Below, piece after piece: positions 7,684 through 42,673 of a DNA stretch of 64,000 nucleotides (position 1 is its first letter; every line of letters starts with the position of its first letter). Location: assembly GCA_021324885.1 (NCBI GenBank), contig JAJPIF010000022.1, positions 62,001-126,000 of the forward strand, written 5' to 3'. The DNA is from Pseudomonadota bacterium (GTDB lineage Bacteria > Desulfobacterota > Binatia > Binatales > Binataceae). The position numbers and the translations under genes are program-made. Under the pieces are notes generated by a model that saw only the letters and a list, made by a program, of their open reading frames with translations, was not told the origin of the DNA and did not search any database.

Positions 7684-7719
7684 AAACGGCGCCGGAGTTT
7701 GGAAGCTCCGGCGCCGTTT
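7684..7719 (-). terminator. Rho-independent terminator after the HU gene
   Basis: A perfect 14-bp stem (7684-7697 with 7706-7719) encloses an 8-base loop. Read on the minus strand the stem ends CGCCGTTT, giving only a short U tract. It lies 22 bases past the HU stop codon and separates that operon from tRNA-Val. Confidence 0.8.
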
Positions 7720-35912: not shown

Positions 35913-36519
35913 TGAACCAGTGCTCCTTTTCCCGCCCAGGTTATGCAACAGCCTACCCAAAACCATCATGGCGAGCCAAAGGCCATCAGGTAGGGCTCGA
36001 CGCCCAACCGGGCATGTGAACCGGGCTTTCCCACAGCCACCTCGACCTGCGAGCTTTTTCTCCGGCCCCGGAAAGTTGCGCGGTCGTCCGGATGTCCGCG
36101 GCGCGAACCGGTTTGGGCAGGCCGGCAAAAGTTTCCCGCGAAGGCGGCGCGTTTTGATTGGTGTATTGCGCAAGGCGCGCAGCGCGCCGGCGCCGCTACC
36201 GCCGCTGCTGTATTCTCCCGTGCAGGCGATTGGAACATGGCCGGGTGCTGTTGACAATTGCGCGCCGTTCCGTTGGTAAAGTGTTATCTTATTGATGTAA
36301 AGCTAGGTTGTCCTCCTTGGTTTGTTTTCTGGTTTCTGATGGCGCCCGGTCTTGTTTCCGGGCGCCATCGTCTTTGCAGGTCGAGAGCCGGCGCCGAGCA
36401 TGATGCGCCTGCCCGCAACCCCGCCCACTGCGACAGCGGAACCAGGCGACGACGTCAGGATCGCCGCGCCGGCGACTTCGTATTCCAGGGATAGACTCGG
36501 GCTTCTTTGCAGTGACTTC
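35913..36519. other. 607-base non-coding stretch with promoter-like and hairpin sequences
   Basis: No recognisable protein is encoded. The acyl-CoA dehydrogenase ribosome site lies at the left edge. TTGACA occurs at 36251, an AT-rich block at 36275-36300, CCTCCTT at 36312 and a perfect 12-bp hairpin at 36338-36369. The right end runs up to tRNA-Ser. The part from 36251 to 36375 is described separately as a possible small RNA. Confidence 0.6.
36288..36374 (+). ncRNA. Candidate small RNA with anti-Shine-Dalgarno motif and terminal hairpin
   Basis: A TTGACA (36251-36256) followed by an AT-rich block suggests a promoter, although no perfect -10 at 17 bases is seen. The stretch after it contains TCCTCCTTGG, identical in CCTCCTT to the 3' end of 16S rRNA. 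It then ends in a perfect hairpin GATGGCGCCCGG-8-CCGGGCGCCATC (36338-36349/36358-36369) followed by GTCTTT. The layout resembles short regulatory RNAs that pair with ribosome-binding sites. The T-run is weak, so this is only a candidate. Confidence 0.25.
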
Positions 36520-36611
36520 TGGCGGAGAGGGGGGGATTTGAACCCCCGAGACCCTTCCGAGTCTACACGCTCTCCAGGCGTGCGCCTTAAACCGGGCTCG
36601 GCCACCTCTCC
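36520..36611 (-). tRNA. tRNA-Ser (anticodon GGA)
   Basis: The minus strand forms a class II tRNA. Acceptor GGAGAGG pairs with CCTCTCC, the anticodon loop CTGGAGA carries GGA, a long variable arm (GACTCGGAAGGGTCT region) follows, and the T arm is CGGGGGTTCAAATCCCCC. The discriminator is G and the CCA end is encoded. It stands alone, with a hairpin-bearing gap downstream. Confidence 0.95.
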
Positions 36612-36709
36612 GCGGTTGTACTCAGACCCGCAAGCTTCGTTTGCCGCCGGCGGGGAGTTCCAAGTATTACATGGCGCTTGGCGCTGACGCCATTGGCTGA
36701 ACCAGCGCT

Positions 36710-38672: not shown

Positions 38673-38936
38673 TCAGCCGCCGCCGATTGCCGGTACGAAA
38701 TGGATCTCGCTGGATTCGCTGACCTGCTCCAGCAGGCCGCCGACAGCAAGGTCGCCGTCAATGGAGACCGCGACTGAGCTTTTCAGGTCGTCGTTTTCCA
38801 CGACCTGATCGCGGAAGCCAGGGAACTGCTGGTCCAGATTGCGGACCACCTCGCCGACCGTGCGGCCCGGGATCACGACGGACTCTTTCCCCCCGGTGAA
38901 TTTGCGCAGCAATGAAGGTATGAAAACAATAGGCAT
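38673..38936 (-). CDS. MoaD/ThiS-family sulfur carrier protein
   Basis: An 87-residue ubiquitin-fold protein with VGEVVRNLDQQFPGF, NDDLKSSVAVSIDGD and a C-terminal PAIGGG. The terminal GG is the site of adenylation and thiocarboxylation in this family. It sits 64 bp downstream of the molybdenum hydroxylase large subunit on the same strand, so it may supply sulfur for molybdopterin, although MoaD-like carriers also serve other pathways. No MoaE or MoeB gene is next to it. Confidence 0.85.
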   Translation of the reverse strand: MPIVFIPSLLRKFTGGKESVVIPGRTVGEVVRNLDQQFPGFRDQVVENDDLKSSVAVSIDGDLAVGGLLEQVSESSEIHFVPAIGGG

Positions 38937-38950
38937 CTCAGCGTCAAAGC

Positions 38951-38972
38951 GGAGGCGGAAACCTCCGCCTCC
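38951..38972. terminator. Hairpin between CoxL-type and MoaD-like genes
   Basis: GGAGGCGGA-AACC-TCCGCCTCC is a perfect 9-bp stem with a 4-base loop in the 64-base gap between two minus-strand genes. No T-run follows on the minus strand. It may attenuate or stabilise the message between the two genes. Confidence 0.45.
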
Positions 38973-39000
38973 AAGTTAAGCTTACACCGACGGCGGTTGA

Positions 39001-41280
39001 TCAGCCATGTCTGGCCGCCAGGATCCTGTACAGACGCGGCGGCGATATCGGCAAATCCGTAATGCGCGTCCCCACTGCCGCCGAAACGGCGTTGGCTACC
39101 GCCGCCGGCGGCGGCACAATCGACACCTCGCCCACGCCGCGCACGCCCAGCGGATGGCCCGGATTGGCGACCTCAACCATCACCGGGTCGATCATGGGCA
39201 GATCCAGGCAGGTCGGCATCCGGTAGTCCAGGAAGCTGGCGTTGCGCAGATTTCCTTTCTCGTCATAAACGTATTCTTCGTTCAGCGCCCAGCCCAAGCC
39301 CTGTACCGTTCCACCCTGCATCTGGCCTTCGACGTAGCTGGGATGAATCGCCTTGCCAACGTCCTGTACCACCGTGCATCGCAGCACCTGGACCTTGGCT
39401 GTATCGGGATCGATCTCGAGGTCCACCAGGCATCCGGCAAATGAAGGGCCGACTCCGGTCGCGTATACGTTGGCTCGTCCGGTAACCGGTCCACCCGTGC
39501 GCGTTAGCCGCGGCGCGAGATCCTTCAGCGTCAGCGGCGCGACGCCGTTGCGCTTGGAGACCGCCTTGCCGTCGATCCAGTCGACATCCTCAGGCGAAAT
39601 TTCCCAGATTTTCGCCGCACGTTCTTTGAGTTGACGCACAACATCGTTGGCGGCCTGGTAGGCTGCCAGTCCGGTGGCGAATGCCACGCGGCTGCCGCCC
39701 GTCCCGTCAGTGTAGCCGATCGAATCTGTATCTGCCACGGCGGGGCGTACGTCTTCGGCGCGCAATCCCAATACCTCCGCCACGACCATCGCGGTGGACG
39801 CACGCGAGCCGCCAATATCGACCGATCCGGTGACCAGGCTGGCGGTACCGTCGGCGTGGACGTTGACGATCGCGGAGGACTGCATTCCGCCGTTGATCCA
39901 AAACCCAATTGCGACGCCGCGGCCACGATACTTGCCTGGCACCTGCGCCAGCGGGGTCTGGTAATGCGCGCTGCGCTTGAGTGCCTCGCAGACTTCGACG
40001 CATCCGATGCGCGGGAATTTCGGCCCCATGACCGAAGGCGTACCCTCGCGCGACGCGTTCTTGATCCGGAAGTCGAGCGGATCCATCCCGCATCGCTGCG
40101 CCAGTTCATCCACCACGCATTCGACCGCGAACGCGGCATTGGTTGCGCCGGGCGCGCGGTAGGAGCTGGTCTTGGGCTTGTTGACGAGAACGTCGTAGCC
40201 GTCAACCAGGAAGTTGTCGATATTGTATGGTGACAGCCCGGTGAAACATCCCAGCCATACGGGCGAGCCGGGAAAGGCGCCAGCCTCGTAAGCGAACCAG
40301 CATTTGGCGGCGACGATTTTGCCGTCCCTAGTCGCGCCCATCCTCACCCGCAGTACCGACCCCGAGGTCGGTCCGGTCGCTCCGCGCATCATCTCGGTGC
40401 GCGTCATCACCATTTTGACCGGGCGTCCGCCGGCATGCTTTGACAGCAGCAGCGCCACCGGTTCGATATGTACGGTGAGTTTGGCGCCGAAACCACCGCC
40501 GATTTCAGCCGGGACCACCTTGACGCTGCCTTCGGGAAGCCCCAGCAGCGTCGCCGACATGATCCGCACATCGAACGGTCCCTGGGTCGAGGTGTACACC
40601 GTCGCATGACCGTCACCGGAGAAGATCCCCAGGGCGTTGGGCGGTTCGATATAGCCCTGATGGACCATCTCGGTGCGGAATTCACGCTCGACTATGATGT
40701 CGGCCGACTTGAAACCGGCTTCGATATCGCCGCGCTTGAATTGGAATTCGCCCGCGATATTGGTCTCTTCATCGGGACGCTCCTTGCGCCGGATGGTCGT
40801 ATTGATTATCGGCGCGCCGGGTTTCATCGCGTCGAGCACGTCCAACACGATCGGCAGCGGCTCATACTCGACCTCGATCAGGCCCAGCGCTTCCTCGGCA
40901 ATATGCGGACTGGTCGCAGCCACAGCGGCCACACCCTGACCGGCATAGAGCACCTTGTCCTTGGCCAGGATATTGGACGCCAGGTAAAGTGGATTGACCG
41001 CGGCCTCGCCACCCATGCGATAGACGGGCGCGGTGGTCTGTGGCGCGAAGTCATCGTGGGTAACGACCGCTTTGACGCCCGGCAGCCGCAAGGCCTTCTC
41101 GGCATTTATCGATTTGATCCGGGCGTGAGCGTAAGGGCTGCGCAGCACTTTGCCGTAGAGCATCCCCGGGAAGCTGTAGTCAGCGCCATACTTGGCCCGT
41201 CCAATGACCTTGTCCAAACCGTCGTGGCGGACCGGCCGGGTACCGATAACCTTGAACTGATGGGTCTGGGGCGTATCCAT
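39001..41280 (-). CDS. Molybdenum hydroxylase large subunit (xanthine dehydrogenase/CoxL family)
   Basis: A 759-residue molybdopterin-binding subunit. The N-terminal a/b hammerhead domain (to about 120) is followed by the Mo-binding region with EIGGGFGAK, the active-site loop SSYRAPGATNAAFAVE, GSVDIGGSRASTAMVVAE, and the catalytic Glu718 in GVGEVSIVPP. The loop has no Cys as in form I CO dehydrogenase, so this is a xanthine-oxidase-type hydroxylase of unknown substrate, perhaps an N-heterocycle or aldehyde. Order CoxM, CoxS, CoxL on one strand with 13-30 bp gaps gives a full three-subunit enzyme. Confidence 0.93.
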   Translation of the reverse strand: MDTPQTHQFKVIGTRPVRHDGLDKVIGRAKYGADYSFPGMLYGKVLRSPYAHARIKSINAEKALRLPGVKAVVTHDDFAPQTTAPVYRMGGEAAVNPLYLASNILAKDKVLYAGQGVAAVAATSPHIAEEALGLIEVEYEPLPIVLDVLDAMKPGAPIINTTIRRKERPDEETNIAGEFQFKRGDIEAGFKSADIIVEREFRTEMVHQGYIEPPNALGIFSGDGHATVYTSTQGPFDVRIMSATLLGLPEGSVKVVPAEIGGGFGAKLTVHIEPVALLLSKHAGGRPVKMVMTRTEMMRGATGPTSGSVLRVRMGATRDGKIVAAKCWFAYEAGAFPGSPVWLGCFTGLSPYNIDNFLVDGYDVLVNKPKTSSYRAPGATNAAFAVECVVDELAQRCGMDPLDFRIKNASREGTPSVMGPKFPRIGCVEVCEALKRSAHYQTPLAQVPGKYRGRGVAIGFWINGGMQSSAIVNVHADGTASLVTGSVDIGGSRASTAMVVAEVLGLRAEDVRPAVADTDSIGYTDGTGGSRVAFATGLAAYQAANDVVRQLKERAAKIWEISPEDVDWIDGKAVSKRNGVAPLTLKDLAPRLTRTGGPVTGRANVYATGVGPSFAGCLVDLEIDPDTAKVQVLRCTVVQDVGKAIHPSYVEGQMQGGTVQGLGWALNEEYVYDEKGNLRNASFLDYRMPTCLDLPMIDPVMVEVANPGHPLGVRGVGEVSIVPPPAAVANAVSAAVGTRITDLPISPPRLYRILAARHG

Positions 41281-41293
41281 ATTTATGCCTGAG

Positions 41294-41773
41294 TTATCGC
41301 GCCTGTATGACCTTGGCGGCGTCCATCACGGCGCGCACGATCTTGTCGTAGCCGGTGCACCGGCACAGGTTGCCGGCCAGCGCGTAGCGGATTTCGGCCT
41401 CGGTCGGATTGGGATTGCGGTCGAGCAGCGATTTGGCCGACATCAGAAAACCGGGCGTGCAGATGCCGCATTGCAGGCTGGCGTCTTCGAGGAATTTCTG
41501 CTGCAACGGATGCAGTTTGGTGCCTTCGGCCAGACCTTCCACGGTGGTGATCTTCTTGCCGCGCGCCTCCACGCCCAGCATCAGGCATGAGCACACCGGG
41601 CGGTCATCGACCAGCACCGTACAGGCGCCGCAGTCACCGGTCAGGCATCCTTCCTTGCTCCCGGTCAGTCCCAGGATGTCGCGCAGCGACTCGAGCAGGC
41701 TCTGACGCGGCTCGCACAAAAATTCAACGGGCTCGCCGTTGATCGTTGTTTCCACCAGTTGTTTCTTAGCCAT
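41294..41773 (-). CDS. Molybdenum hydroxylase small subunit, two [2Fe-2S] clusters
   Basis: A 159-residue iron-sulfur protein. The plant-type ferredoxin cluster has C43, C48, C51 and C63, and the second cluster in the helical domain has C102, C105, C137 and C139 (CGICTPG and NLCRCTGY). All eight Cys are present. It passes electrons from the Mo centre to the FAD subunit. It starts 13 bp before the large subunit and 30 bp after the FAD subunit. Confidence 0.96.
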   Translation of the reverse strand: MAKKQLVETTINGEPVEFLCEPRQSLLESLRDILGLTGSKEGCLTGDCGACTVLVDDRPVCSCLMLGVEARGKKITTVEGLAEGTKLHPLQQKFLEDASLQCGICTPGFLMSAKSLLDRNPNPTEAEIRYALAGNLCRCTGYDKIVRAVMDAAKVIQAR

Positions 41774-41803
41774 TATTCGCTTCCTGCCTGTCTCCTGGAA
41801 TGA

Positions 41804-42673
41804 TTAATTCTGGCGTGCGCGTTCGGCCGCTCCCAGCAGCGCGCGCCGGGTCAACACGCCCACTACATGGCGCCGATATTCGGCGGTCCCGCGCATGTCG
41901 TCGATCGGCGAGGCGGCCTCCCGGGCCAGTTCGCCGGCGCGCTCCGCGGTCTTTTCGTCCAGTTTCTTGCCGATCAGATACTCGGCCGCCTTGGGCGCCA
42001 GGATCGGTGTGGGGGCCACCGCGCCCAGCCCGATCCGCGCTGCCGTCACCTTGTCGCCGTCCAGGGTCACGCAGGCGCCGGCGCCGACGATCGCGATATC
42101 CATCTCGTTGCGCGGGATCATGCGGATATAGCGGTCGGCGCTATGAGGCGCAGGGGCGGCAATCAGGATCTGGACCACAATCTCCCCTTTCTGGAGCACA
42201 TTCTGACCGGGTCCGGTGAAAAACTTCTCCACCGGCACTTCGCGCGTGCCGTTGGGGCCGGCGATCTTCGCGACCGCGCCCAAAGCCAGCAGCGCCGGAC
42301 TGGTATCGGCAGCCGGAGAGGAATTGCACAGGTTGCCGCCGATCGAAGCGCGGCTTTGAATCTGCAACGACCCAATCAGATGAGCGGCTTCGGTCAAGCC
42401 CGGGTAATACTTGCGCATCGTCTGATTTTCGTGGATTTCGATGCACGGGACGGCCGCCCCAAGCTTCAGACCCGTTTTGGGATCGAAGCTGATCTGGCGC
42501 ATTTCCGGGATCGCTTTGACGTCCACGAGGAGCCTGGGTTTACGTACCGCATTGCGCATCTGGATCAGCAGGTCGGTGCCTCCGCAGATGATCCGCGCAC
42601 TGTCACCATCAGCGGAGAGCAGCTTGACTGCCTGATCGACCGTGGTGGGAGCCTCGTAACTGAACTCGTGCAA
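41804..42673 (-). CDS. Molybdenum hydroxylase FAD-binding middle subunit
   Basis: A 289-residue FAD protein of the CoxM/HcrB type. ARIICGGTDLLIQMRN and SRASIGGNLCNSSPAAD are the two FAD-binding blocks. It completes the three-subunit hydroxylase with the two genes downstream. The MetB-like enzyme gene ends 190 bp upstream on the same strand, so the operon may begin further upstream. Confidence 0.94.
   Translation of the reverse strand: MHEFSYEAPTTVDQAVKLLSADGDSARIICGGTDLLIQMRNAVRKPRLLVDVKAIPEMRQISFDPKTGLKLGAAVPCIEIHENQTMRKYYPGLTEAAHLIGSLQIQSRASIGGNLCNSSPAADTSPALLALGAVAKIAGPNGTREVPVEKFFTGPGQNVLQKGEIVVQILIAAPAPHSADRYIRMIPRNEMDIAIVGAGACVTLDGDKVTAARIGLGAVAPTPILAPKAAEYLIGKKLDEKTAERAGELAREAASPIDDMRGTAEYRRHVVGVLTRRALLGAAERARQN

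Follow-up and report, generated by a model that had tools for sequence, protein, structure and literature searches.

The short element at about 36290-36376 is best read as a candidate plus-strand transcription unit, small, non-coding and apparently restricted to the species, a reading to which we assign a probability of about 0.5. Positions refer to the window (the whole analysed stretch of 64,000 nucleotides), which corresponds to positions 62001-126000 of contig C20 in a draft genome of 4.53 Mb in 30 contigs. The anatomy of the element and the unusual combination of its parts are directly visible in the DNA, and such a combination would not readily arise by chance. A short plus-strand unit fits because an AT-rich block, two extended -10-like sites and a strong hairpin with T in its tail on the plus side only occur together, and because the gap has no other recognised plus-strand gene for the hairpin to terminate. 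Against such a unit stand the lack of a homologue in the genomes searched, the 20- or 28-nt spacing between -35 and -10, the weak U tail and the absence of an Rfam family. The original prediction was of a small RNA carrying an anti-Shine-Dalgarno motif; the plus-strand transcription unit was retained from it, and the anti-Shine-Dalgarno role was unsupported. The features used below were:

35912, minus strand: start of an acyl-CoA dehydrogenase gene, one border of the gap
35913-36519: intergenic gap, 607 bases
36251-36256, plus strand: TTGACA, a -35-like hexamer
36274-36282, plus strand: extended -10-like site TGG-TAAAGT, a putative promoter element
36282-36290, plus strand: extended -10-like site TGT-TATCTT, overlapping TGG-TAAAGT, likewise putative
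36276-36335, plus strand: AT-rich stretch, 35% GC, within the lowest 0.028% of window 60-mers
36290-36376, plus strand: presumed RNA of about 80-90 nt, predicted from the -10-like sites and the hairpin
36312-36318, plus strand: CCTCCTT, the complement of a strong Shine-Dalgarno sequence
36337-36370, plus strand: hairpin of 12 perfect pairs and one T-G pair (13 pairs), tail GTCTTTG
36520-36611, minus strand: tRNA-Ser(GGA), the other border of the gap, convergent with the presumed RNA
7684-7719, minus strand: 14-bp perfect hairpin between the stop codon of an HU-like gene and tRNA-Val

The length of the 607-base gap was confirmed, as was its freedom from genes: no coding-like GC3 bias was seen in any of the six frames, and the five open reading frames scanned gave no Pfam match at E 0.001. 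The gap was also compared with plasmid and phage records as a check for mobile elements, with no match at E 0.01. A minus-strand gene start at AAGGAGG was considered and rejected, as no ATG, GTG or TTG follows within the next 50 bases. The scanner listed a second weak terminator-like site at 36461-36475 (plus strand), within the 1.7 expected by chance. The nearest named relatives, judged by the large subunit of a molybdopterin-binding oxidoreductase (39001-41280), were Centralia_MAG_231 (92% identity) and Centralia_MAG_399 (91%), both of them metagenome assemblies titled 'Proteobacteria bacterium'. This subunit belongs to a gene set at 38673-42673 on the minus strand, with two further subunits and a ThiS-like open reading frame, that is ~88-94% identical in Centralia_MAG_231; the shared order stops before the tRNA-Ser.

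For the start of the unit, TTGACA was present where predicted, and no -10-like hexamer lies at 16-18 nt from it, TAAAGT being 20 nt and TATCTT 28 nt behind the hexamer. No normally spaced sigma-70 promoter was listed by the scanner at the element. A -35 hexamer is largely or wholly dispensable for extended -10 promoters. Sites of the form TGnTAnnnT number 30 in the window (both strands) and two of them sit here, where ~0.007 would be expected per 30 nt by arithmetic from the window counts; among the 14 copies of TTGACA on both strands, only that at 36251 has an extended -10-like site within 30 nt. The predicted AT-rich block was borne out as the 60-mer 36276-36335, although the window has four other dips that match or surpass it in AT content; 60-mers of 35% GC or less made up 179 of 315,158. 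A separate AT-rich stretch on the same contig (L181:3685-3744) carries a 10-bp perfect inverted repeat, GTCGGTTATT / AATAACCGAC, with a further partial copy, and is perhaps the operator of a regulator.

The perfect 12-bp hairpin was likewise found, with arms at 36338-36349 and 36358-36369 that are 100% complementary around an 8-nt loop. Perfect hairpins with arms of at least 10 and loops of 3-10 were ordinary in the window (2, where 20 shuffles averaged 1.25); with arms of at least 12 they were unusual (2, against 1 in 20 shuffles pooled). Across 715,984 bases of the same genome, i.e., the window, 251,984 bases of the same contig and 400,000 bases of three others, perfect hairpins with stems of 12 bp or longer number 12, and only the one at 36338-36369 has a 60-nt flank of 40% GC or less on either side. 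The fold of 36285-36380 had a z of -5.74, and that of the 5' part (36290-36336) a z of -0.96, with 31 of 200 shuffles as good; the 5' part being no better than shuffles, the fold signal is that of the main 3' hairpin.

The hairpin at 36337-36370 would likely serve as a terminator or as a stabilising 3' end. Of its 8 tail bases on the plus side 4 are T, and of the 8 on the minus side none is. The intrinsic terminator rule of the tool asks for a GC-rich stem with, directly behind it, a T run with 5 T in 8, and the tail GTCTTTGC is, with its 4 T of 8, too T-poor for this standard rule, so the terminal hairpin of the original prediction is absent from the terminator list of the scanner. The other hairpin of at least 12 bp in the window (7684-7719, minus strand) is probably the terminator of the gene before it (about 8057-7741, minus strand), which we take by eye to be HU-like. 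It resembles the hairpin of the element in its long perfect GC-rich stem, 8-nt loop and 4 T in the first 8 of the tail, and does appear in the terminator list through the looser start offset of the tool. Because this second hairpin reads as the terminator of an HU-like gene, hairpins of this kind, with a long perfect GC-rich stem, an 8-nt loop and a modest T tail, may be the style of this genome.

That no functional unit exists, and that an AT-rich patch and a hairpin came together by chance in unconstrained intergenic DNA, was judged unlikely. In its favor, the gap is unconserved save for four short matches outside the element, the promoter hexamers are poorly spaced, and neither further AT-rich dips nor perfect hairpins of at least 10 bp are rare. 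Against it, about 0.014 combinations of hairpin and AT-rich flank would be expected for 12 hairpins by our own arithmetic, although these criteria were picked after the element had been seen (post hoc), and the two extended -10-like sites exceed their expectation of about 0.007.

Under the preferred reading of a small plus-strand unit, transcription, its ends and any function are inferred from this anatomy as follows. Transcription would begin from an extended -10 promoter, at about 36289-36298, and end at about 36376, at the GC-rich hairpin or immediately behind it; the RNA would combine a flexible, U-rich 5' half with a stable hairpin at its 3' end. If this RNA acts, it would most likely do so by ordinary antisense pairing through its U-rich, CCUCC-bearing 5' half.

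Conservation had been proposed as a check in the original prediction, and neither a DNA search of 40 other genomes of the family nor a model search of 147 other genomes of the class gave a credible homologue. A BLAST search of 41 family genomes (own included) with 141 bases returned, at E 0.01, the element alone, and a looser search of 38 genomes returned pieces of 15-31 nt; the four best of these were rejected as homologues, their sites being covered by open frames of >400 codons. A covariance model was built from one sequence entered twice; such a model is weak, and with it, and with the stricter filters of the class search, diverged homologues could be missed. In 29 relatives it gave 6 weak matches other than the element itself, each inside a stop-to-stop open frame of >230 codons, which is suggestive of genes in GC-rich DNA though not proof, and these were rejected. 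In 148 class genomes (own included), searched with stricter filters, it gave two matches at E 0.3, also rejected: one (L187) is a different short hairpin and the other (L188) is the antisense of a gene start, where a purine run mimics the motif. The same model found nothing in 699 kb of further DNA from this genome and its relatives. Elsewhere in the gap, short matches to three other genomes were seen, four in number and 28-46 nt long, none of them inside the element.

A further scan looked for CCTCC no more than 70 nt ahead of a perfect hairpin with a stem of 8 bp or longer and 4 T in the next 9 bases. The scan matched the window, five copies of the window, L059, L111, L126, L131, L151 and L153. 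L126 (Dehalococcoidia) has a 12-bp hairpin; L151 and L153 are one place, inside an open reading frame, and were rejected. Of 23 genomes (own included), 19 had a match to the bordering tRNA-Ser with E no higher than 1e-8, and nothing was shared in its flanks by blastn or, in the 8 flanks printed, by eye; the tRNA-Ser is thus conserved and its surroundings are not. A relative of the neighbouring phosphodiesterase occurs in both other members of the genus, on contigs other than their tRNA-Ser contigs. None of the genomes compared was of the same species, and the nearest are too rearranged for missing homologues to rule against a species-specific RNA.

A trans-acting small RNA of the NfeR1 type, in which CCUCCUU pairs with Shine-Dalgarno sequences and represses translation, is improbable. 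The motif was present as predicted at 36312-36318 and complements a strong Shine-Dalgarno sequence; the predicted folds leave it unpaired at least in part. The stretch around it had been called unstructured, whereas the motif is predicted to be partly paired (unpaired probability 0.23-0.99, depending on the base and the assumed ends). Its frequency is that of chance (7 copies in the window where 5.71 would be expected, a number reached in 33 of 100 shuffles), it occurs singly in the element, and it comes without conservation. A 17-mer containing the motif was found in 18 viral contigs and was not extended beyond about 20 nt, and the hairpin of the element was found in none of those contigs. 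The 16S 3' end, with which the motif had been equated, was not found in the genome itself; GGCTGGATCACCTCCTT was found in 4 of 41 family genomes. Caution is warranted, as CCTCC simply complements a ribosome-binding site and often occurs by chance.

Pairing of the presumed RNA with gene starts was compared on the home contig and in 400 kb elsewhere in the genome. Starts were rough and partly chosen by Shine-Dalgarno strength, and on that basis 51 of 423 gene calls on the home contig had GGAGG before the start. Two of these sites, in genes that we take by eye to be SDR-like and LLM-oxidoreductase-like and that would be the possible targets, pair with the presumed RNA over 10 and 11 nt. Shuffled flanks gave two or more pairings of at least 10 nt in 3-5% of trials, the mean extension on the home contig did not reach significance (P about 0.1), and a reversed-core control had nearly the same longest-match distribution there, with a maximum of 9. 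In the second 400 kb, where 71 of 515 gene calls had GGAGG, none of the 71 sites reached 10 nt and one reached 9 (P 0.84; mean P 0.28). With both samples pooled, P was 0.20 and 0.24, and the excess on the home contig was not reproduced. Given a chance-level motif, a random-grade stem, a pairing excess that was not reproduced and no credible homologue in the genomes searched, the anti-Shine-Dalgarno role was not supported; a newly arisen, species-restricted small RNA that silences a few start sites by its single CCUCCUU, in a lineage for which small RNAs have not been described, would be very improbable.

Comparison with known RNAs gave no membership. No family of Rfam 15 scored at or above its gathering score on the element, and only two tRNAs did so in the window. 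Full-length but very weak matches were given by sX14/Xoo3 (RF02233; 18.4 bits vs. a gathering score of 80) and BTnc201 (RF04177; 19.9 bits, the best on the element, vs. 105), of which the element is not a member and with which it shares a similar outline, with a long 3' hairpin. A match to sX4 at 36416-36626 (minus strand; 48 bits, gathering score 70) covers the tRNA-Ser and its 3' flank, and is driven by its tRNA part. C-rich loops of the anti-Shine-Dalgarno type are the feature by which CcsR and cuckoo RNAs are grouped. In Rhodobacter sphaeroides, the four CcsR RNAs are co-transcribed and associated with a DUF1127 gene, according to PMC10253847. Unlike these, the element is a single unit, and no DUF1127 protein was found among the ten neighbouring or gap open reading frames scanned. 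NfeR1/alpha-r14 of alphaproteobacteria, as described in PMC10746234, is conserved and 123 nt long, forms three hairpins with CCUCCUCCC unpaired in each, and represses ntrB at its start region; the CCUCCUCCC loop motif is also given in PMC3927594. The element resembles NfeR1 as a short intergenic RNA candidate with a Shine-Dalgarno complement, and similar action is conceivable. It differs in having one CCUCCUU, partly paired, no CCTCCTCCC, and one weak 5' stem plus one perfect hairpin in place of three hairpins; neither the three-hairpin arrangement with CCUCCUCCC nor the conservation of alpha-r14 was found in it. A search for literature on small RNAs in Binatota, to which the lineage is guessed to be akin, found none.

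Finally, it is improbable that the hairpin is, on the minus strand, the 3' end or a processing structure of the tRNA-Ser transcript: the minus-strand tRNA-Ser does point toward it from about 150 bases off, but T is absent from the 8 bases of the minus-side tail AGAAACCA, the scan showed no CCTCC plus hairpin at the tRNA-Ser loci of relatives, and no such hairpin was seen by eye in 8 flanks.

The small plus-strand unit would thus be a plausible, ordinary and unproven candidate for an orphan small RNA. If an anti-Shine-Dalgarno function were true, the CCUCC strategy would be extended to another group; if the unit is expressed, it would add one to the orphan small RNAs of bacteria.
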